IMG/VR virus record: IMGVR_UViG_3300029448_000500
Location: 1 to 22,005 of that record
DNA from: a virus
DNA: 22,005 bases
Direction: 5' to 3' (one strand)
Position 1 is the first letter of the stretch. Every line of letters starts with the position of its first letter. The notes below the pieces were generated by a model that made no database searches, was not told where the DNA came from, and was given only the letters and a program-made list of their open reading frames with translations. Shown here piece after piece: positions 875-21,574 of this stretch. Position numbers and translations under genes: made by a program.

Positions 875-2260
875 ATGACTAGAGCATCAGATACAGCAAA
901 ACTATTAGGAGCAGGTGCTACCATATTAGATGGTACAACTATAAGTACTGCTGATAATACAGACCAACTTACACTTTTATCTACTGATGCAGATGCTAAT
1001 GTAGGACCAAACCTTAATCTATTTAGAAACTCTGGTAGTCCTGCCGATGATGATGTCTTAGGTTTAATTATTTATAATGGTCGTAATGATAATTCACAAG
1101 ATGTGATTTATGCAAGACAGATTTCTTATATTAAAGACGCTTCTGATGGAAGTGAAGATGGTCAATTAACATTACAAGCTATGGTTGCTGGAACAATCAG
1201 AGACAGACTAAATATAACTCCAACTGAAATAGTTTTAAACGAAGAAAGTATAGATTCAGACTTTCGTGTTGAATCAGGTTCAAATGCTAATATGTTATTT
1301 GTTGATGGGGGTAATGATGCAGTTGTGGTAGGGCAATCTGCTCCTGATACAACTTTAAGTGGTGGAACACCTGCATTTCAAGTTATTGGTAGTGACCATT
1401 CGTCTTTTGCATCTTTAACAAGGAGAGTGGCATCTTCTAGTGGACCAGTTTTAATTTTAGCTAAAAGTAGAAATACAAGTGTAGGTTCACATACAGTAGT
1501 TCAAAATGGTGATGTTACTGGAGAAATTGTTTTTATTGCAGATGATGGAACAGACTTTGATTCAAGAACTGCAAGTATTAAATCTGAAGTAGATGCAGCT
1601 CCCGGTGCAAATGATACTCCGGGAAGATTAATTTTTATGACAACAGCAGATGGTGCAAATTCGCCAACAGAAAATATGCGTATTACAAAGGATGGTGACG
1701 TACTTTTTCAAAAAACGACTGCGGCAACTTCTGGTGCAGGAACATATTTTAATGTTCCAACAAATGTGTCAACGATGCCTGTTTATTTACGTTTCTGCAA
1801 AACTTATAGTGGAGTTAGAGAAGGAATAAGTTTTGCTCACAATGATTCACAAGTTGGTGGAATAACATTTAATGACTCAGCTGCATCTTTTAATACTTCC
1901 TCAGACTACAGATTAAAAGAATCCGTAACTTATGACTTTGATGCAACTACTAGATTAAAGCAACTTAAACCTGCAAGATTTAACTTTATAGCAGATGCAG
2001 ACAAAACAGTAGATGGTTTTTTAGCACATGAAGTGTCAAGCATTGTACCAGAAGCAATTAGTGGAACTAAAGATGAATTACAAGTTTGGGAAGATGGCGA
2101 AAAATTACCTGATGGTGTTTCTGTGGGTGACAATAAACTTGATGATAAGGATAACACAATACCTAAATATCAAAGCATTGACCAATCCAAACTTGTACCA
2201 CTACTAGTAAAAACCATACAAGAATTAGAAGCACGTATCACAACCCTAGAGAACGCATAA
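875..2260 (+). CDS. Tail fibre with C-terminal peptidase S74 intramolecular chaperone
   Basis: The protein has 461 aa. Residues about 1-330 are beta-helical-type fibre repeats (Gly, Asp, Asn, Thr rich, e.g. 'TPGRLIFMTTADG' followed by 'ENMRITKDGDVLF'). From about residue 340 it carries a peptidase S74 domain. The hallmark SDYRLKE begins at Ser343, with Lys348 as the expected partner. It is followed by 'RLKQLKPARFNF', 'DGFLAHEVSSIVPEAI' and a terminal coiled coil (KLVPLLVKTIQELEARITTLE). In this family the domain helps the fibre trimerise and then cuts itself off just before the Ser. Here that would release about 119 residues and leave a mature fibre of about 342. The Shine-Dalgarno site is weak (AGGGGTAACAA). 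It probably forms the receptor-binding or distal part of the tail. Confidence 0.9.
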   Translation: MTRASDTAKLLGAGATILDGTTISTADNTDQLTLLSTDADANVGPNLNLFRNSGSPADDDVLGLIIYNGRNDNSQDVIYARQISYIKDASDGSEDGQLTLQAMVAGTIRDRLNITPTEIVLNEESIDSDFRVESGSNANMLFVDGGNDAVVVGQSAPDTTLSGGTPAFQVIGSDHSSFASLTRRVASSSGPVLILAKSRNTSVGSHTVVQNGDVTGEIVFIADDGTDFDSRTASIKSEVDAAPGANDTPGRLIFMTTADGANSPTENMRITKDGDVLFQKTTAATSGAGTYFNVPTNVSTMPVYLRFCKTYSGVREGISFAHNDSQVGGITFNDSAASFNTSSDYRLKESVTYDFDATTRLKQLKPARFNFIADADKTVDGFLAHEVSSIVPEAISGTKDELQVWEDGEKLPDGVSVGDNKLDDKDNTIPKYQSIDQSKLVPLLVKTIQELEARITTLENA

Positions 2261-2261
2261 C

Positions 2262-2495
2262 ATGGAAATGGATGCAATGTTATTCTGGAACATAATCCTG
2301 ACTATGGTCGTTGTACCATTCGGTTGGGCATTTAACAAGATGTTCCAAGAGGTCAAACGCATACAGATACTCTTGAACAAGACACGTGAGGACTATGCAC
2401 GTAAGGATGATGTGAAAGATGATATGCACAATCTTATGGATGCACTCAAAAGATTAGAAGATAAGTTGGATAAAATATTGATTGGAAGTAGATAA
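2262..2495 (+). CDS. Small single-pass membrane protein with coiled-coil tail
   Basis: This 77-aa protein has one hydrophobic segment at residues about 7-26 (LFWNIILTMVVVPFGWAF). A charged amphipathic helix follows (about 30-75, including DDVKDDMHNLMDALKRLEDKL) with a heptad-like pattern typical of a coiled coil. There is no lipobox or cleavable signal. It starts 1 bp after the fibre stop codon, with no clear ribosome binding site, so translation is probably coupled; ATGs at 2268 and 2277 are alternative starts. A one-membrane-segment protein near the fibre genes could be a lysis component (pinholin or spanin-like) or a membrane-anchored virion protein. The sequence alone cannot decide. Confidence 0.6.
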   Translation: MEMDAMLFWNIILTMVVVPFGWAFNKMFQEVKRIQILLNKTREDYARKDDVKDDMHNLMDALKRLEDKLDKILIGSR

Positions 2496-2503
2496 AGTTT
2501 AAT

Positions 2504-3271
2504 ATGTCGGCATATTTATTTGGTCAGTTGAGTGACCCAAATACTAAAGTTTTATACCCACACTTTGATAAGTTTATAGACCAAGCTGCTAATATAGAAT
2601 GGAATGTAACAGAAGATGTGTTGTATGTAGAAGGTCAACCTGTTACAGACTTGGATTCTATATTTGTAAGAAACAATGTGTTTGAGGAGAGCACACATAA
2701 GAAGTATAATAACTATTATATAATACAAGATTATTTACAATATCATAATGTAACTAGATACAACAAGAATCATCACTATGAGAAGACAACTAAGTTACAC
2801 AACTTACTACTAGCAAAAGAATTAGGTTTACGTATACCTTACACAGAAGCATCAGAGAAGAGCACTAGAGATAACTCAATCATTAAACCTGTATTAGGTG
2901 GACAGCATACACTAGATGGCAATGAAGCAAGTTATCCTTGTATTATACAACAAAAGATAACAGGTAAGAACAAACGATTATATGTTATAAACAACAAACA
3001 CTTCTCATTTGAGGTAGTCACAGATAAGTTAGACTACAGAGATGACCCTGAAAGCACAGTTGTTGTAACAGAGATAGATGATGTTACTGTAGAAAAAGTT
3101 AAGCACTTAATGTGTAGGTTAAATTTAGACTTTGGTGCTAGTGATTTCATGGAAGATGAAGAAGGACTATGGTTCTTAGAAGTGAATACAGGTCCTATGT
3201 TTGTAGCTTTTGATATGCAGGTACAAGGTAAGTTAGCTGAAACAATAAGATACGAACTTAATAATATATAG
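2504..3271 (+). CDS. ATP-grasp ligase of the RimK/graspetide-ligase type
   Basis: This 255-aa protein has the ATP-grasp C-terminal half. There is an ATP-contacting lysine in SIIKPVLGGQ (Lys128), followed by the CIIQQKITGKNKRLYVI segment (146-162; compare 'QEYI.G.D.RV.V' of RimK-like enzymes). The metal site is LDFGASDF then WFLEVNTGP, giving Asp214, Glu226 and Asn228. Their 12- and 2-residue spacing is the one I recall for E. coli RimK (Asp248, Glu260, Asn262). The family joins a carboxylate, via an acyl-phosphate, to an amine or hydroxyl, for example adding glutamate to a protein or forming side-chain macrocycles. The N-terminal about 100 residues are shorter than in RimK and may bind the substrate. 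It lies directly behind the tail fibre and membrane protein genes, so a virion protein is a candidate substrate, which is inference. Confidence 0.8.
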   Translation: MSAYLFGQLSDPNTKVLYPHFDKFIDQAANIEWNVTEDVLYVEGQPVTDLDSIFVRNNVFEESTHKKYNNYYIIQDYLQYHNVTRYNKNHHYEKTTKLHNLLLAKELGLRIPYTEASEKSTRDNSIIKPVLGGQHTLDGNEASYPCIIQQKITGKNKRLYVINNKHFSFEVVTDKLDYRDDPESTVVVTEIDDVTVEKVKHLMCRLNLDFGASDFMEDEEGLWFLEVNTGPMFVAFDMQVQGKLAETIRYELNNI

Positions 3272-3281
3272 GTAAAATAAT

Positions 3282-5594
3282 ATGGCAATGTTTAAAGGCT
3301 TTAAACCACAGGGATTACAGAAGATAGCTAGTCGCATGGGATATGCAGGTCGCATGGAAGAGTTTGACAGCTATCTACAACAGAATCCTGATAAACAACG
3401 TGAAATGATTACATACGAAGAGAAAGCACAAGAGATGGCTCGTGGTGGTGCTGTACGTAAAATGCAAGAAGGTGGTATTGTTAGAGATGGTAGGGGTAAT
3501 CTACTCAATTCAACCGGACAAACTATAGGTGCTTATACACCTTCTCCTACACAAGCTGCAGGAAGTAACATTAGACCTTTAGTAAATAATACTCAATATA
3601 TTGAACCAACATTTCAAGGTGGTAATCCATACACTAGAGCAATAGGTGAAAATGGTGGTGGTGGTAATATGACACAAATAACCACTATGGCTATACCTGA
3701 AAATGGCAGTGGTGGCTTTGAGCCGATTGCTAAAACTATGGCTATAGGAGAAGATGGTGGTCAAGTACCTTTTCCTATTGCTAAAACTCAAGCTATAGGA
3801 GAAGATGGTGGAGGACCTGAACCTATTCTGCAACCCGGACCTCTGCCTTTTTTACCTGCAAACCCACCTGCTAATACTAATCAAGCCTATGTGCCTACAA
3901 TCGGAACAAATCCGGGTCAAGTATCAGCCTATGGAACACCTAATGCACCTAAGAAAGTAACAGATGTTACAGCTAACTTAGCACAGACAGGTGCTATGCC
4001 TGTAGGTGGTGTGACACAACCTGAATTAACTAGAGTAGAAGGTGGTCAATTTGTAGACCAAAGAACAGGTCAATTATCAGGCACGCCTGTAGCAACAGCT
4101 TTTGGTGCAGACACTGCTCAAGCAGCACCTGCTCAAGAAATAGCAACTACTCAAATGACTGCATCACAGGTAACACCTGCTGTGCAGACTGCTGTACAAG
4201 CAAACCAAGCTGCTCAAACAGATGTAACAGACCCTAATGCTAAAGTTGTAGCAGCTCAACAAACTGCATCAAGTATTGGCGATTTAAATGCCGCACAAGG
4301 TAATGCAACATTACTAAACAATCCTGTACAAAGACAGATACAGTCAGGTGAATTGATTACAGGTGCTGCTGACGCACAGACAGCTTCTACATTTACTGAA
4401 CAGATTCAAGCTGCCACAGCTACCCCAACAGAAAAAGCTACAGTACAAGGGCAACTAGCAAACTTAACTGCTAACTTTGATGCAAGCAATCCACCTGCAT
4501 GGGCAGCAGGAACATTACGTGCTGTACAGGCACAGATGGCACAAAGAGGATTAGGTGCATCTAGCATGGCAGGACAAGCCATGATACAGGGTGCATTAGA
4601 GTCAGCACTTCCTATTGCACAGGCAGATGCCAATATACAGGCACAGTTTGAGACACAGAACTTGTCTAACAGACAACAAAGAGCTATGCTTGCCGCACAA
4701 CAAAGAGCACAGTTTATAGGACAAGAGTTCGACCAAGAGTTCCAAGCAAGGGTCAAGAACTCTGCTAGGATAGGTGATGTAGCAAATGCTAACTTTACTG
4801 CTGAACAAAATATAGCATTAGAGAACAGTCGTGCCGCTAACACAATGAACTTAAACAACTTGTCTAATAAACAGGCACTAGTTATGGGTGAAGCATCAGC
4901 ACTTGCTAATTTAGATTTAGCTAATCTAAGTAACAATCAGCAGGCAGCAGTTCAAAATGCTCAGTCTTTCTTACAAATGGAAATGGCTAATTTAAGTAAT
5001 GAACAGCAGACTGCTCTGTTTAATGCTCAAGCTATAAATCAATCATTGTTATCTGACCAATCTGCTACTAATGCCGCAAGTCAGTTTAATGCAACATCCG
5101 ATAATCAAACAAAACAATTCATGTCTAACTTAGCAAACAGCATATCACAGTTTAATGCTACACAGGCTAATGCACAGAATCAATACAACGCAGGCGAACT
5201 AAATACTATTGGTCGTTTTAACACAGAGATACGAAATCAACGTGACCAATTCAATGCACAGAATCAATTAGCTATTGCACAGAATAATGCTGTATGGCGA
5301 AGAGAGATTGCTACAGCAGATACTGCTACAATCAATCGTGCTAATGAGTTAAATGCTAAAGCAGTGTTAGATATATCAGACAATGCCTATAATAACTTAT
5401 GGTCATTCTACTCTGACACTATTGAGTGGGCATGGAAGAGTGCTGAAAGTGAGCAAGATAGAATTAATGCACTAGCAGTGGCAGAAGTCAGTAAGGAAGC
5501 ACAGGAATATGCAGCCAACGCATCTAAAGCTGCCGCAGGTAAATCGGCACTAGGAACAATTATAGGCACTATTGGTGGTGCTTTAATTAGATAA
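3282..5594 (+). CDS. Large Gln/Asn/Ala-rich virion protein with tandem and 11-residue repeats
   Basis: The protein has 770 aa. I see no cysteine. The N-terminus is basic (MAMFKGFKPQGLQKIASRMG) and includes a Gly-rich patch 'RGGAVRKMQEGGIV' at about 55-68. Residues 120-187 are four tandem 17-residue repeats. Residues about 230-370 are Thr/Ala/Gln-rich and look disordered or beta-like. From about 380 to 740 it is a long helical Gln/Asn/Ala-rich region with an 11-residue periodicity marked by NLSN and QFNA motifs. It ends in a small Gly-zipper (SALGTIIGTIGGALIR) that could insert in a membrane. These traits resemble internal virion or tail-tube proteins that podoviruses eject into the envelope. 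It starts a tight cluster of six genes of the same kind. No enzymatic motif is visible. Confidence 0.65.
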   Translation: MAMFKGFKPQGLQKIASRMGYAGRMEEFDSYLQQNPDKQREMITYEEKAQEMARGGAVRKMQEGGIVRDGRGNLLNSTGQTIGAYTPSPTQAAGSNIRPLVNNTQYIEPTFQGGNPYTRAIGENGGGGNMTQITTMAIPENGSGGFEPIAKTMAIGEDGGQVPFPIAKTQAIGEDGGGPEPILQPGPLPFLPANPPANTNQAYVPTIGTNPGQVSAYGTPNAPKKVTDVTANLAQTGAMPVGGVTQPELTRVEGGQFVDQRTGQLSGTPVATAFGADTAQAAPAQEIATTQMTASQVTPAVQTAVQANQAAQTDVTDPNAKVVAAQQTASSIGDLNAAQGNATLLNNPVQRQIQSGELITGAADAQTASTFTEQIQAATATPTEKATVQGQLANLTANFDASNPPAWAAGTLRAVQAQMAQRGLGASSMAGQAMIQGALESALPIAQADANIQAQFETQNLSNRQQRAMLAAQQRAQFIGQEFDQEFQARVKNSARIGDVANANFTAEQNIALENSRAANTMNLNNLSNKQALVMGEASALANLDLANLSNNQQAAVQNAQSFLQMEMANLSNEQQTALFNAQAINQSLLSDQSATNAASQFNATSDNQTKQFMSNLANSISQFNATQANAQNQYNAGELNTIGRFNTEIRNQRDQFNAQNQLAIAQNNAVWRREIATADTATINRANELNAKAVLDISDNAYNNLWSFYSDTIEWAWKSAESEQDRINALAVAEVSKEAQEYAANASKAAAGKSALGTIIGTIGGALIR
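3639..3842 (+). repeat. 51-bp tandem repeat, four copies, in frame
   Basis: Copies start at 3639, 3690, 3741 and 3792, exactly 51 bp apart. Each encodes 17 residues beginning AIGENGGGG, AIPENGSGG, AIGEDGGQV and AIGEDGGGP. Copies two and three share a 'PIAKT' end. Copies three and four are the most alike in DNA (GCTATAGGAGAAGATGGTGG in both), which suggests recent duplication. The repeat keeps the reading frame and contains no start or stop signal. Confidence 0.85.
4659..5258 (+). repeat. Degenerate 33-bp (11-residue) periodicity in the coding sequence
   Basis: NLSN codons start at 4659, 4857, 4923 and 4989, and NFTA starts at 4791. The distances from the first are 198, 264, 330 and 132 bp, all multiples of 33. 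A second series of [QR][FY]N[AT] starts at 5082, 5148, 5181, 5214 and 5247, at steps of 66, 33, 33 and 33 bp. DNA identity between units is low, so this is mainly a protein-level hendecad, as in long straight or right-handed coiled coils. Confidence 0.7.
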
Positions 5595-10600: not shown

Positions 10601-10853
10601 TAAGGGAACAGGCAAATTAAGTGTTGTAAAACAGCAGATTTGGGGTAAGATACCTGAAAGTGATAGAAAAACATTAGACACAATATATAAGAGATTAATG
10701 AGAGAAGACAAACTAGCTTTTGCCGATGAAGGTTCACAAGAGATAAAAGATATAAGGTCTAACTTGAATAGAATGATATTAAGACCAAATGGAGAAGTTA
10801 TGCCTTTATATCAATGGGCATTAGAAGTTCATAGTAGGAGACTTACAGACTGA
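7653..10853 (+). CDS. Giant internal/ejection virion protein, 1066 aa
   Basis: The N-terminal about 100 residues are acidic and helical (NYLNEEDKVKENII, 'YTDEDLATKEDIYDAYMEHF'). Residues about 103-230 form a long Gly/Ala-rich, mostly apolar region with repeated small-residue zippers (GGAGKLAALGG, 'GGISGITGGVIGGGAGIL'). That pattern is typical of proteins which phages pack inside the head and insert in the host envelope. The centre is helical. Around 612-627 there is a 'MPFVISSFMPFPRFVANQ' segment that resembles domains of large phage polyvalent proteins (LPD38-type), though I hold this loosely. The C-terminal 150 residues are charged coils. The length is close to T7 gp16, but I do not see a lytic transglycosylase motif. 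The TGA at 10851-10853 overlaps the next ATG by one base. Confidence 0.65.
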   Translation: MLEATQKRTYNYLNEEDKVKENIIENDDFIEDARGFLQKREGYTDEDLATKEDIYDAYMEHFRYQNVNEVTAIRDLEYAQNANQEEKEQFARLIDLFETQKSEGFFNAAGDYIQGIASAPSTYAGIATGGAGKLAALGGVNLAKIGIKKLLGEGIKKSAIRAGLTEGAIGTGQGLAQEMTKEETGYQDDISYGNVALTGGISGITGGVIGGGAGILQTRQALKAAEKLDVAQTAQKTLSKKANAKAKATLQKNKNSNAQKYISKNLNALDPEKVDLGIGIAREIADAKELGTLTGKLPTELYENISAAALDLAAKGKLKINKGDRITTVLQRAIADGDLKVPEITKILKEYNLTADKFSLLYKAELSEAGKTMQVQSNLVQTMQASLKELENAGVSTVGAREAKEIAENANKGTFFKDLDRLRLGAMTSQPATTMRNNINAGLRVAVDMGVRVADNILNLRNPFDSVFDVAKYMFNPSEANVTRQLLEGNMPDTARKLFRDAADLASTTGGESKLAQLGTKLNYFNTMSDNFFKQAMLTASLRRRIKDANIKGLGNDLDEIIATGKFNQIPDDIMNKSIKDSLEFVYQSSFEGADKGLIARKTRGFLKAHRDMPFVISSFMPFPRFVANQLKFLYDHAPVIGYIGLENIGKKAGYKKATLAGFADSKLVKEKAAKQIAGASMFATALAWRNQQGDGVTWSEFKDDKGDIIDGKALYGPFAPFMLAADIYYRWSKSNVGGETDIGEIAPSRENYVRETLQALAGSQFRTGYGLYAIDKMIDDLSGEGDFIGSKGEKILGEFVGNVVNTFTIPLSPFKDIYSQFDKESRFVPETRMSGEVNFLDIVMKRGFRALPDIGPEYDMPLADPTKTGRVIAINPLEKQMFGFTRRPKKNTLQAEMGTLNLQYYNIYKRDSNDLIDLYTRHNLSEGGAETNLSERMKTVIESKEYKRRTTLQEKRDYLLSKAKEVTALAKDKAKTELEEESKGTGKLSVVKQQIWGKIPESDRKTLDTIYKRLMREDKLAFADEGSQEIKDIRSNLNRMILRPNGEVMPLYQWALEVHSRRLTD

Positions 10854-12787
10854 TGCGTGGATTTGAATTAGGAACTGAAACAGATAGAATGTTTGCTGAT
10901 GCTGAACAGAAACGTGCAGAACGTGATGTAGGCAAGACAGAGTTCCAACAAGTTGTTGATGCAAGTGGAACAAAGCCAATGACTGCTGAAGAGTTGGCAT
11001 ACACAGGTGCATCCATAGCACCCATCACAGGTGATATCATTGCATATAAAGAAGCACCTGAAGATTTTGAACGTGCCTATGAATTACTTAAAAAGGGTTA
11101 CAAAGAAAAAGACATTGTTAATCTAGGATTAGGTACTGCTTTTGCAGGATTAGTTGCACTAGGATTAGTTCCGGGCATTGGATTTATAGGTAGAATGGGT
11201 AAAAGTGCCGCAAAAGATAGTATAAAAAAAGCTATACAAGAAGGCAATTTGTCTGAAGCTGCAGATACTATGGTCAAGACAAGTAAAACATTTCAAGATA
11301 AGGCACTTGTAAATAAACAATCAGAAGCACAGCTTAAAAGATTAGCTGAAGCGAGAGAAGAGTTTAAAAATTTAAGTGCTAAAGAAAGAAAGAAAAAGTT
11401 TAAAAGACTCAATAGACCTGATGATATTACAGTGTATCACGGTTCTAAGGGTATGCAAGATAAGTTAGCTTCTTACAAAGACTATCCAAAAGGAACAGCT
11501 ACTGTAGACTCAACTAGAAAAGATATGTTAGTTAAAGAAGGCTTTCAACCCTACACTAATGTTGAGGAAGGTATAGCAAAAGATAGGGGTACATTTAAAG
11601 AAGCTAGAGGATTAACAGCAGGAGATGGATACCACGCAGAAATACGTGACTCTAAATTATTATCTACGTCACGTGACCCTAACGTTTCTATGTCTCCATC
11701 TTTTACTAATCCTGACAGTATAGTTGATGCTGATAATAATATTATTTCTGGACCAATCATAGAAAATTTAATTCACGCAGAAATACCATATGACAAAATG
11801 AAAAATATGAAACCTGATGACTATATGGATTTGACTAATAGTTTAGCTAAAAATAATGAGATTAGAAAAGTATTGACAGAAAAGTATTTTAGCAAAACAA
11901 ATAAAAATGAATTTGGTGCTACTATGTTACCTAAGTCAGGTCATGTCGAAGCTGAATTAGCTGTAGCATTTCCTGAATACTTTAAACCCAAATCTATATC
12001 AGACTTAAATCCTAAAGATGTTGACCGTAGTATAAGCTATGTTTACAATAAAAGGGGTGAGCTAAAAAGTCCTGCTGAAATGTTTGAAGGTAAAGATATA
12101 GGCAAATTAGATACTCCTGAAAAGATTAAAGCAGCTAAAATAGCATTTGAAAAAGCTGATACTTTTTTTGAAAGGATTGGTTCAGGAAAAGGTAGTGACC
12201 TAGAAAAAGCAATCTTTCCTACACAAAATAAAATATCTAAAGAAGAAGCAGTAATCAGTAGAAACAAAGCCTATACTAATATTAAAGATACATTGTCTAG
12301 CATGGCTGAATTAGCTAAATATACTAGTGAGTTTGGTGCTAGGGGTTCGTATGATAAATTTTTACAGAAGATGGGAACTTATGCATATGAATTTGACAAA
12401 CTAGCAGACAAGTTTCCTGAAGGCTCAGAAAAATACACTAATCTAAAAGTGCTGTCTACTTTAGCAGATTTTGGATTTTATAGTGGTCCTCTAGGAATGT
12501 CAAATATGCGTAAAGGATTTAGTGCTAAAAAAGCCTTGAACAATGTGTCTGATAAAATAAAGAAAAAAGAAATAGGTACAGGTTTAACTGCCAATAAACA
12601 AATAAAAGAATTTTTAACACAAGACCAAAATCTTATGTCACCTAAATCAACAAAAGGTATGACTAGTTTAAATAAAACATACAAAGAACTAAAACCACGA
12701 GAAGCGAAAGAGATGATATTAGAATTAACTAATCGCTTCAATCGTGGTGGTTTAGTCGAACAAAAAGGTTTAATGACACGTAACTAA
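10853..12787 (+). CDS. Virion-cluster protein with putative ADP-ribosyltransferase (ART) domain
   Basis: The protein has 644 aa. Residues about 88-115 are apolar and Gly-rich (VNLGLGTAFAGLVALGLVPG), as in its neighbour, and could be a membrane-inserting segment. A basic helical linker follows (KERKKKFKRL). Residues about 190-385 contain three motifs in ART order: DITVYHGSKG (Tyr195-His196-Gly197), LLSTSRDP (Ser271-Thr272-Ser273) and HVEAELAV (Glu366-x-Glu368). In ART enzymes these positions bind NAD, stabilise the site and catalyse transfer. Phages such as T4 inject packaged ARTs (Alt), and ART domains are frequent in ejected polyvalent proteins. The glycine spacing and secondary structure cannot be checked here, so the call is moderate. 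The C-terminus ends in 'RFNRGGLVEQKGLMTRN'. Its stop overlaps the converging minus-strand gene. Confidence 0.5.
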   Translation: MRGFELGTETDRMFADAEQKRAERDVGKTEFQQVVDASGTKPMTAEELAYTGASIAPITGDIIAYKEAPEDFERAYELLKKGYKEKDIVNLGLGTAFAGLVALGLVPGIGFIGRMGKSAAKDSIKKAIQEGNLSEAADTMVKTSKTFQDKALVNKQSEAQLKRLAEAREEFKNLSAKERKKKFKRLNRPDDITVYHGSKGMQDKLASYKDYPKGTATVDSTRKDMLVKEGFQPYTNVEEGIAKDRGTFKEARGLTAGDGYHAEIRDSKLLSTSRDPNVSMSPSFTNPDSIVDADNNIISGPIIENLIHAEIPYDKMKNMKPDDYMDLTNSLAKNNEIRKVLTEKYFSKTNKNEFGATMLPKSGHVEAELAVAFPEYFKPKSISDLNPKDVDRSISYVYNKRGELKSPAEMFEGKDIGKLDTPEKIKAAKIAFEKADTFFERIGSGKGSDLEKAIFPTQNKISKEEAVISRNKAYTNIKDTLSSMAELAKYTSEFGARGSYDKFLQKMGTYAYEFDKLADKFPEGSEKYTNLKVLSTLADFGFYSGPLGMSNMRKGFSAKKALNNVSDKIKKKEIGTGLTANKQIKEFLTQDQNLMSPKSTKGMTSLNKTYKELKPREAKEMILELTNRFNRGGLVEQKGLMTRN

Positions 12788-13143: not shown

Positions 13144-13381
13144 GTACTTCCTCGCTTCTTCTTCTAGCTTCATCCCTTTGTACCTTTTCTAACTGATTAA
13201 AATACGCAGTGTTGTAACCACGTTGCCATTCCTTTCTTTCTAGGTCGTTTGATTTCTTAGATGGTGACGCAAGTATTACTCTTGCATTACCTACCTTACG
13301 TGTGTAAGGTTTACTATTAAAAGATGCATAACCTCTATCAAACATGTGTTTAATAATATGTTGAGGTCTCTTATTCTTCAT
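13133..13381 (-). CDS. Small basic protein of unknown function
   Basis: The protein has 82 aa and is very rich in Lys, Arg and aromatic residues (MKNKRPQHIIKHMFDRGYAS, 'ERKEWQRGYNTAYFNQLEKV'), ending in RRRSEEVHEG. It is soluble, probably helical at its C-terminus, and possibly nucleic-acid binding because of its charge; no family is recognised. The start at 13381 is preferred over the upstream ATG at 13411, because GAGGAG stands 7 bases before it and because this reduces the overlap with the T5orf172 gene from 41 to 11 bases. The same 11-base overlap joins it to the MazG gene, so the three are probably translated in relay. Confidence 0.6.
   Translation of the reverse strand: MKNKRPQHIIKHMFDRGYASFNSKPYTRKVGNARVILASPSKKSNDLERKEWQRGYNTAYFNQLEKVQRDEARRRSEEVHEG
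13147..13153 (-). promoter_or_regulatory. Ribosome binding site deciding the MazG start
   Basis: GAGGAAG lies 3 to 9 bases before the ATG at 13143, with GAGG at 13150-13153 at a normal 6-base spacing. It sits inside the last codons (Glu-Glu-Val) of the preceding gene. It supports the 13143 start over the one at 13173. Confidence 0.65.
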
Positions 13382-13886
13382 ACTTCTTCTCCTCTTTATT
13401 GAATATTGCATTTAAATCTTCTAAGTCTTCAACGTAAAACCATTCTCCTTTTTTATTGTATTTCTTTTTAACTAATAATTTATGGATACTTCTTTCAGCT
13501 ACGTGACGATTAGCTACTTTATAAAACATAACTAACTCGTAGTTTCTAAAAGGTGAGCCTGTTTGATATGCATTTAATCTGTCTTCAGCATTAACTGCCT
13601 TACCAATCTTATACCAATTAATCCAAGCTGTATTTGCTATGGCATATATTTCTCCTTCTTTTGTCTGCTCTATCTTTTGATGTGACCATGCATCATCAAG
13701 AGACTTGTATCTGCCCGGCTTATGCAAAGGATTAGACTTGGGTATGTATTTACCATTAACAAACATTCTAGTTGTATTCTTACGTACATAAGAAGCTAAC
13801 CTTTCTCGTCTGCCTGATGGTCTTACATACCATAGTTCTCCATCCTCGAATGTAGCAGGTGTTCTTAAACTATCTGTTAAGTCCAT
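13371..13886 (-). CDS. T5orf172 / GIY-YIG-superfamily domain protein
   Basis: The protein has 171 aa. The C-terminal half (about 77-155) fits the T5orf172/MUG113 type of GIY-YIG-like fold: GEIYAIANTAW (first strand, Tyr81), WYKIGKA (92-98), an Arg in EDRLNAYQTGSP (Arg103), AERSIHKLL (Glu131) and GEWFYVEDL (Trp149-Phe150). In true GIY-YIG nucleases the Tyr, Arg and Glu are catalytic, but activity of this phage branch is mostly untested. The N-terminal half holds 'MFVNGKYIPKSNPLHKPGRY' and a basic RPSGRRERL, possibly a DNA-contacting arm. The start at 13886 has a clear ribosome binding site (AGGAGATATA before ATG). It could be a DNA-processing nuclease or a relic of a homing endonuclease. Confidence 0.75.
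   Translation of the reverse strand: MDLTDSLRTPATFEDGELWYVRPSGRRERLASYVRKNTTRMFVNGKYIPKSNPLHKPGRYKSLDDAWSHQKIEQTKEGEIYAIANTAWINWYKIGKAVNAEDRLNAYQTGSPFRNYELVMFYKVANRHVAERSIHKLLVKKKYNKKGEWFYVEDLEDLNAIFNKEEKKYEE
13389..13394 (-). promoter_or_regulatory. Ribosome binding site deciding the 82-aa gene start
   Basis: GAGGAG lies 7 bases before the ATG at 13381, within the Glu-rich last codons of the T5orf172 gene. It supports the 13381 start and not 13411. Confidence 0.65.
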
Positions 13887-19522: not shown

Positions 19523-21574
19523 TCATATTATGTCTTTGGTGTCAAGCCAATTATTACCTATTTTTGCTTCTAATAGTAAAGGTACATTAAAATCAATGTT
19601 AAACTTACGATTAATAATACTTAGTAGGTCTTGATTAGCTGAATGTAACAGGAATAATACCTGCTTCTCTTCTTCAGGATGTATGTCTATGACGATAGAA
19701 TCATGCACACTGTTTACAACACAGGATTTTAAGGTAGATAGTAGTTTATCTACGTGCATAAGTATGAGAGGAACTATATCAGCAGTAGCAAAACTCTGCA
19801 CAGGATAATTCTTGACCTGTGTGAAGTGTGTTATCTTACCACTTGCATATCGTTTAGCATCAGGAAATGCAAACTCTCTACCTGAAGGTATCTTTATCTT
19901 ACCTGTATTCATAACTTCTTTAGCCAACTTGGTGTGCCAAAGTGCGATTCCTTTGTACTTTTCTGTGAAGTGTTTATAATATGTAGCCTGAGAAGGTGTC
20001 CTTCCAAATCCTGTTGCTCCGTAGAGGGGTGCAAACGTATGTGCCTTCGCTTCTTGGCGAGATGTCTTCTCACCAGCATCACTAATAACACGAGCAGTAT
20101 AACTGTGAACATCAAATCCATCTTCTATCTCCTTCATAGCAGTTTGGTCTTGTGATAAAAATGCAGCAGCTCTGAACTCTAATTGTGCAAAGTCAGCTTC
20201 GAGTATCTTGCCACCCTTCCAACGTGATACGAATACCTTCTTAACAGGGAATGTACCACCTCTAGGCATATTCTGCATGTTAGGGTCAGCACCACTAAAT
20301 CTACCTGTCGCTGTCCTGTGTTGTAGTAGTCGTACATGCAACTTACCATCAGGCTTTATGTGTGTCTGTATGCCTTCGACAAAGGAAGATAGGTATGTAT
20401 CTAATGCTGACAGTCTCTGTAAGTCAGACAGAAAGTTCATGGCACTAGTCATATTCTTTTGTTTAGCTATAGTATGTAGTGTTCCTAGATTATTCTTATT
20501 GACACTAAAACCATTAGCACTAACCCATTTAGCATTGGGAGCATTAAACTTTAAACCACCTACCACCATTCTGTCAGGTATAAATAAGTAGCCACTAGAA
20601 TCACACACACTACACTTGGTAGGTCTAGCAAAAGGAGTTCCATCTTTCCTTACCTTTCTAACATGCCCTGTACCTAAACAGGTCTTACATTGTTCTGCCT
20701 TTGTTTTATATACAATAGTAGACTTAGTGGCTACCATTTGCTTGTAGTCAGTAGTATCCATATAAGGTGTAAAGTTATTTGCCCATAGTGTTTTATCTAA
20801 AGGCTTTCTACTATATATAACCCATGACATCTGTTCAGGACTATTGAGATTAATAGGTGTGTCTCCCATCAATTCCTTTACTTGCTTGTTTAGTCTGTTC
20901 TCTATATCTTGTTTCTCTTGTTCAAACTGCTCACGAACAGAATCCAAAGCATCTCTGTCTACAGTGAATCCTCTCTGATATATTCTAGCTAGTGTTGTAG
21001 CTACTTGATTAGTAAACAGTACAGTCTCCATAAGACTAGCATTATCTACTGTGTTTAGTCTTCTGTATATAGAATCACTTAATTGTTGTGTAGCTTTCAA
21101 GTCAGCAGATAAATAGTCTGACAATTCCTGTCGAGGAATCTCATCAACAGATACATTATTCTTAAAGTATTCTTTCATAGTATCTTGTTTCTTTGTATCT
21201 AGGTCATGCCTAATTGCACATGCTTCTAGTGACAATGGTTCTTTCTGCCCACGTTGTAGTATATACTCACCCAACATGGTGTCAAAGACTGTGCCATCAT
21301 ACTTGAATCCACATTCCCACAGCCACAATAAATCGTGTACAATATTGTGTCCTATAAGGACAGTTGCTTGGTCTAACAACTCCTGTATATTAGAACGTAC
21401 TCTTGTAATGCTGTATAAGTTATCATCTAAATCATCCATGTGAAATAAATGCTCTTCACCTTTGTCTGTTAAACATCCCACCATTACTAGCTTGTTGTTC
21501 TCTTCAAATGGGTCAAGGTGTAACTTACCACCCCTATGAGTAACAGTATTCTCTACGTCAAGTGTTAGCTTCAT
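19523..21574 (-). CDS. polA: Family A DNA polymerase with 3'-5' exonuclease and DnaJ-like zinc insert
   Basis: This 683-aa protein is the phage replicase. The proofreading domain has all three motifs: Asp6-x-Glu8 (TLDVENT), Asn77/Asp81 (GHNIVHDLL) and Tyr154-x3-Asp158 (DYLSADL). The polymerase domain has motif A EADFAQLEFR (Asp461), motif B R506-x3-K510-x7-YG (RQEAKAHTFAPLYG; the Pol I Phe762 position is Phe514) and motif C VHDSIVI (Asp625), where the usual HDE reads HDS. Between the thumb segment INLNSPEQM and FSVNKNNL lies an insert with CKTCLGTG (296-303) and CSVCDSSG (321-328), a DnaJ-type zinc pair. The T7 thioredoxin-binding loop position holds no comparable insert. The gene overlaps the helicase stop (ATGA). 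There is a 36-bp gap to the next gene. Confidence 0.96.
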   Translation of the reverse strand: MKLTLDVENTVTHRGGKLHLDPFEENNKLVMVGCLTDKGEEHLFHMDDLDDNLYSITRVRSNIQELLDQATVLIGHNIVHDLLWLWECGFKYDGTVFDTMLGEYILQRGQKEPLSLEACAIRHDLDTKKQDTMKEYFKNNVSVDEIPRQELSDYLSADLKATQQLSDSIYRRLNTVDNASLMETVLFTNQVATTLARIYQRGFTVDRDALDSVREQFEQEKQDIENRLNKQVKELMGDTPINLNSPEQMSWVIYSRKPLDKTLWANNFTPYMDTTDYKQMVATKSTIVYKTKAEQCKTCLGTGHVRKVRKDGTPFARPTKCSVCDSSGYLFIPDRMVVGGLKFNAPNAKWVSANGFSVNKNNLGTLHTIAKQKNMTSAMNFLSDLQRLSALDTYLSSFVEGIQTHIKPDGKLHVRLLQHRTATGRFSGADPNMQNMPRGGTFPVKKVFVSRWKGGKILEADFAQLEFRAAAFLSQDQTAMKEIEDGFDVHSYTARVISDAGEKTSRQEAKAHTFAPLYGATGFGRTPSQATYYKHFTEKYKGIALWHTKLAKEVMNTGKIKIPSGREFAFPDAKRYASGKITHFTQVKNYPVQSFATADIVPLILMHVDKLLSTLKSCVVNSVHDSIVIDIHPEEEKQVLFLLHSANQDLLSIINRKFNIDFNVPLLLEAKIGNNWLDTKDII

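Follow-up and report, generated by a model that had tools for sequence, protein, structure and literature searches.

The 22,005-nucleotide stretch of viral DNA analysed here (the window) probably encodes a leaderless graspetide-type macrocyclase that would staple rings into a virion-region protein encoded by the neighbouring gene. We put the probability of this reading, which draws on sequence comparison, a structural model and analogy with known systems, at roughly 0.77. On our best reading the staples would be Thr-Glu rings, in some copies with an outer Thr-Glu or Lys-Asp ring, and in other marine phages the target would be a transglycosylase-containing protein. The features concerned are:

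875 to 2260, plus strand: tail fibre with an S74 intramolecular chaperone (Pfam, PHROGs), upstream neighbour, no sign of a substrate role
2262 to 2495, plus strand: 77-aa neighbouring protein with one transmembrane segment and a coiled coil, no sign of a substrate role
2504 to 3271, plus strand: ATP-grasp macrocyclase-like ligase, 255 aa (profile, alignment, model), with K128, R158, D177, R179, D214, E226 and N228 invariant
3282 to 5594, plus strand: proposed substrate, a Q/N/A-rich virion-region protein of 770 aa, orthologue of HMO-2011 ADW08438.1
3477 to 3875, plus strand: motif-bearing insertion (about residues 66-198), not in the ligase-less sister L047 or HMO-2011
3630 to 3653, plus strand: motif copy 1, YTRAIGEN
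3681 to 3704, plus strand: motif copy 2, TTMAIPEN
3732 to 3755, plus strand: motif copy 3, KTMAIGED
3783 to 3806, plus strand: motif copy 4, KTQAIGED

The window derives from an HMO-2011-type phage, with a DNA polymerase 64% identical to that of HMO-2011 over its full length, related structural genes, and a substrate orthologue that is 62% identical. The polymerase (19523-21574, minus strand) carries an inserted CxxC...CxxC (DnaJ-like) zinc-finger stretch. Elsewhere in the window, the 644-aa protein encoded at 10853-12787 has a stretch, GDGYHAEIRDSKLLSTSRDPNVS, that resembles ADP-ribosyltransferases by eye and had no Pfam or PHROG match, and the 171-aa protein encoded at 13371-13886 (minus strand) shows a by-eye likeness to T5orf172/GIY-YIG nuclease domains.

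The open reading frame at 2504-3271 starts with ATG, is intact, and is a genuine ATP-grasp ligase. It matched no Pfam family, and its one PHROGs match, short and weak, is labelled S6 transferase. Among the NCBIfam profiles, the TIGR04187 graspetide maturase (E = 1.6e-9, 37.4 bits) was followed by MvdC (E = 2.7e-5), MvdD (E = 1.7e-4) and the RimK family TIGR00768 (E = 0.005, 16.2 bits); all of these scores lie far under the curated cut-offs (350 bits for TIGR04187, 143.4 bits for TIGR00768), so that by score the ligase belongs to neither of these two families. The best solved sequence match in the PDB is PsnB (E = 4.3e-5 as a single sequence, 3.8e-7 as a profile). A first AF2 model, based on 8 near-identical rows, was discarded (pLDDT 35); a 17-row alignment of relatives with 40-89% identity together with PsnB gave a model with a pLDDT of 92.3 and a pTM of 0.88. 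Foldseek searches of the PDB with this model recovered the ATP-grasp fold and placed PsnB first (E = 3.8e-16), followed by PruB, RimK, AMdnB and MdnC, with a probability of 1.0 for PsnB, RimK and MdnC. This ranking is partly dependent, as PsnB is itself a row of the alignment and may be favoured, and the PDB sequence match is independent of it.

Lys128, Asp214, Glu226 and Asn228, which the preliminary description reported as intact, are indeed unvaried in all 17 rows, PsnB among them, as are R158, D177 and R179; dN/dS values of 0.06-0.18 indicate purifying selection. The predicted fold, the catalytic Lys and the metal-binding Asp/Glu/Asn place the protein in the ATP-grasp superfamily, and the earlier assignment to an active-looking member of the RimK/graspetide group agrees with the model and with the catalytic residues, none of which was lost in the relatives. 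Within this group, sequence and predicted fold both suggest that the ligase is nearer to graspetide macrocyclases of the PsnB/MdnC type than to RimK.

The ligase had been described as stand-alone, which is misleading, as the next gene downstream forms a pair with it. That gene begins 10 nt past the ligase stop codon, and the gap is 1-12 nt in relatives. The upstream neighbours, an S74-type tail fibre and a one-TM protein, were correctly recognized as a fibre and a membrane protein, but the proposal that either is the partner found no support: the comparative evidence indicates the downstream-encoded protein, which had been overlooked. The anticipated conservation with a neighbour was found for the downstream gene at 3282-5594, which co-occurs with the ligase. 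The fibre (875-2260) and the 77-aa membrane protein were rejected as ligase substrates, as neither has the repeated motif. The proposal that the ligase modifies or cross-links a phage protein gains support from this co-occurrence.

No known domain is present in the 770-aa protein. It is probably an ejection protein, judging by its position behind the fibre gene, by its repeats rich in Q/N/A and by the substrate with an SLT domain in other phages, and gene order suggests that it is located in the virion. It contains four copies of x-T-x-A-x-[GP]-E-[DEN] within a Pro/Gly-rich stretch, none of which (0/4) has the full TT..EE form. Alignment with L047 and HMO-2011 shows the motif block as a clean insertion with flanks that align. 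A PsnA-like leader (LFIEDL), the recognition element of PsnB, was found in none of the motif proteins at the 26 phage loci examined; the Plesiocystis locus has one. As this leader is missing, the ligase probably recognizes the motif itself or the body of the substrate, and since several motif proteins open with the motif (MTTRAVGEEG), recognition cannot rely on an N-terminal leader. At 770 aa, the candidate substrate is also far from the short precursor expected of a graspetide. Because formal membership fails on the curated cut-off, the leader and the short precursor, "graspetide-like" is the preferred term for the system.

Many HMO-2011-type phages have the substrate protein, and those relatives that lack the ligase could serve as controls. 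The conserved C-terminal region was used to collect orthologues without regard to ligase or motif; in this set plus HMO-2011, 52 members have no ligase although 900 nt or more of their upstream sequence is available. The motif was present in 12/12 ligase-bearing orthologues, nine of them found without use of the motif, and in 0/52 ligase-less orthologues with upstream sequence visible. In every close ligase-bearing relative in which the downstream gene is visible, that gene has 1-7 motif copies, and no second ORF with two such motifs was found in those loci, bar an unrelated S-x4-E-D-D chance pair in L006. The strict motif was absent from all 1,036 ORFs of the ligase-less loci, and three or more motifs arose in none of 20,000 shuffles. 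A profile that does detect the L293 ligase found no ligase anywhere in 16 ligase-less records, several of them 50-56 kb long and including complete HMO-2011. On a tree of the C-terminal region of the substrate protein, with the motif block left out, the ligase and motif labels require about 5-6 changes, five of which are forced by starred branches in the case of the motif. Ligase and motif are concordant in all four independent pairs on this tree, four being too few for a significant sign test. Together, these comparisons indicate that the motif block and the ligase are gained and lost together in HMO-2011-type phages.

The pairing could also be followed from the motif to the ligase, as motif-only DNA scans led to ten contigs with a ligase gene or ligase end. 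A one-motif pattern, which fixed K1 for a few loci and left the D/E choice at position 8 free, yielded two contigs (L024, L028) that have, beside the motif gene and at their very edge, the C-terminal end of a ligase. A two-copy pattern returned five contigs that each hold a divergent ligase (L226, L168, L246, L136 and L215), and a second two-copy scan returned L293, L300 and L334, with the ligase immediately upstream. In the reverse direction, starting from the ligase at L267, L268-L271 and other loci likewise led to motif genes. Searching DNA for single K-T-M-A copies turned up true matches together with many unrelated ones due to chance. No ligase was detected on the 5-17 kb fragments bearing motif proteins in L198, L292, L336 and L337, and the contigs L166, L178 and L203 start within or at the motif gene. 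The motif proteins of L198, L292, L336 and L337 have 4-5 TTMAMGEE-like copies. Gly/Met-rich motif proteins with up to 10 copies occur in L203 (6214-7629), L334, L246 and L269, and degenerate variants in such proteins (MTMADPEGG, VTQVVFENG) are perhaps decaying or alternative core motifs.

One group of phages has a substrate of ~680 aa in which Pfam recognizes a transglycosylase SLT domain (E = 4e-22), and the ligase lies ~10 kb off. Proteins of this size and type with 2-3 motif copies were seen in L206, L215, L225 and L280, of the same genome type; the L206 and L225 contigs stop short of the expected ligase position. Beyond these contigs, tblastn with three divergent ligases found no relative in 50,697 named phage records, scans of genome contigs returned no cellular relative in one round and only PsnB itself in a second, and a PDB search with the motif peptide gave nothing useful. 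Viral structure matches of the ligase were distant ATP-grasps at about 9-16% identity.

The composition of the motif bears on the chemistry. Among 106 distinct motif copies, 27 have the full TT..EE form and the others are variants; the copy number ranges from 1 to 10, and positions 3 and 5 are diversified within single proteins. T2 and E7 are constant, which is descriptive rather than proof, as the counting pattern required both; it allowed any residue at position 1 and D, E, N or Q at position 8, whereas the scans required an acidic residue at position 8 and the two-copy scans additionally Ala4 and Gly6. E8 occurs exclusively with T1 (27 versus 0; Fisher p = 8e-15, or p = 7e-8 on 72 distinct 8-mers, both values being inflated by the common ancestry of the copies), and K1 exclusively with D8 (23/23). 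For a ring of fixed size, a short donor would need a long acceptor and vice versa, and the T1/E8 and K1/D8 combinations are as expected for cross-linked side-chain pairs. Where position 1 is Met, Val, Ile or Leu, the inner ring alone would be possible.

We propose that the ligase, with ATP and Mg, would phosphorylate the invariant Glu7 of the motif x1-T2-x3-A4-x5-[GP]6-E7-x8, and that Thr2 would attack the phosphorylated Glu7 to close an omega-ester ring. A second, outer ring would join T1 to E8 as an ester or K1 to D8 as an amide, stacked on the inner one like the hairpin-like bicyclic repeats of plesiocin, in which each repeat has two ester links (PMC9484694, PMC12291112). Lys-Asp amides are also made by graspetide synthetases (PMC13097080). 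The virion-region protein would remain at full length, its Pro/Gly-rich segment bearing small stapled hairpins in a row, and no peptide would be released.

The most likely purpose, a weaker claim than the chemistry, would be to protect the ring segment of a virion protein from proteases, or to let it inhibit them, while the protein is ejected across the host envelope. In T7, ejection proteins with a transglycosylase domain cross the periplasm (PMC8954989). With the same chemistry, the rings may form a multivalent protease inhibitor that resembles the heads of plesiocin and targets proteases of the host or the environment, with the specificity determined by positions 3 and 5 (R, M, Q, L, V, Y). 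We hold this possibility tentatively: all graspetides characterized as of 2022 are protease inhibitors (PMC8939145), plesiocin becomes more potent with more rings (PMC13097080), and the 1 to 10 copies diversified at positions 3 and 5 would suit such a role, but the motifs are embedded in a large protein. Slightly less likely, the same rings may serve as a mechanical staple or inter-subunit cross-link, stiffening the linker or joining chains for tail packing or passage. The Pro/Gly-rich linkers and the SLT domain in one substrate class, typical of entry proteins, are in line with a mechanical role, while the pairing of T1/E8 and K1/D8 inside each 8-mer favours local rings over links between chains. 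Overall, we rank inhibition or resistance slightly over a purely mechanical role.

Other reactions account for less of the evidence. Addition of amino acids onto the acidic motif, as by RimK or TTLL enzymes, could be suspected from the RimK structures among the close fold matches, but it is improbable, since it leaves the invariant Thr2, the T1/E8 covariation and the register shared with plesiocin unexplained, and PsnB is nearer than RimK in both sequence and fold. We give equally little credence to excision of the motif segment as a diffusible antibiotic or inhibitor peptide: short Gly-rich motif proteins without other domains do occur in L168/L269 and L246, but in most phages the motifs lie inside long conserved proteins, and no protease or exporter gene was noticed alongside the motif genes. 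The suggestion that a host protein is modified, as RimK does S6, with the downstream motif a coincidence, echoes the label of the weak PHROG match; it is highly improbable in view of the ligase-motif co-occurrence and the blind recovery of ligase contigs by the motif, and PsnB again is the nearer relative.

We consider it rather likely that several lineages of marine phages have a leaderless graspetide-type ligase dedicated to stapling macrocycles into their own cell-entry proteins. The chemistry is known from graspetides; a phage enzyme that aims it at a virion-region protein appears to be new. In agreement with the preliminary description, which knew of no characterized phage example, a literature search with little reach into subscription journals and bioRxiv found none, nor any paper tying graspetides or such ATP-grasp ligases to virion proteins. 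If true, RiPP chemistry would here serve the enzymatic covalent maturation of virion proteins, a viral modification without earlier description, and the system would be a first candidate for ester staples that an enzyme installs in a virion. Graspetide chemistry would thereby reach beyond the small natural products of bacteria to large proteins of viruses, and protein engineering would gain a cyclase that needs no leader, with TTxAxGEE as its short portable tag. Since the pairing names the substrate and the residues to mutate, the claim can be tested directly.

Among known systems, PsnB/PsnA of Plesiocystis pacifica (PDB 7drm-7drp) is the closest, with the top sequence and fold match, an adjacent substrate gene and tandem repeats. 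We tested the register on the Plesiocystis locus, fetched by PsnB residues, in which the ORF immediately before PsnB encodes TTLALGEEEPTTLSLQAEEPTTLSLQAEEPTTLSLSAED. The TTLALGEEEPTTLSLQAEEP... just ahead of PsnB shares its format with the phage TTLAVGEE/TTMAVGEE; the first unit is an exact TTxAxGEE and the remaining units are close variants of TTxxxxxEE, so that plesiocin TTLALGEE and phage TTxAxGEE are in one register. Judged by sequence, the phage loci have what marks the plesiocin group, a neighbouring substrate with a repeated core in the TTxxxxEE register. In contrast to PsnB (314 aa), the phage ligase has 255 aa, lacks several PsnB segments and is only 21% identical, and its substrate, unlike PsnA, is encoded in the virion region, has about 490-1060 aa, lacks the LFIEDL leader and has Lys at position 1 in many copies. 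In favour of the proposal, graspetide synthetases can cyclize whole proteins (PMC12291112) and tolerate a moved leader (PMC13003496). The microviridin macrocyclases MdnB/MdnC and MvdC/MvdD have in common with the phage system the ATP-grasp fold, catalytic residues and ester plus amide side-chain links, but are weaker matches and use another core motif, short leader-bearing precursors and two enzymes. CorB/corallotide (TIGR04187) is likewise a case of motifs repeated within a larger protein (of about 22 kDa), with Lys-Asp isopeptides (PMC13097080), but it is bacterial, has a KxxxD motif and a partner oxygenase, and lacks Thr-Glu rings. RimK and the RimK-type phage ATP-grasps (phrog_2599) share the superfamily and the metal/ATP residues; RimK differs in adding glutamates to a C-terminus and in its lower sequence similarity, and the named phage ATP-grasps match at the level of the fold only (about 9-16% identity). 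In HK97-type capsids, virion proteins are covalently linked by autocatalytic cross-links that need no enzyme, whereas a dedicated ligase is proposed here.
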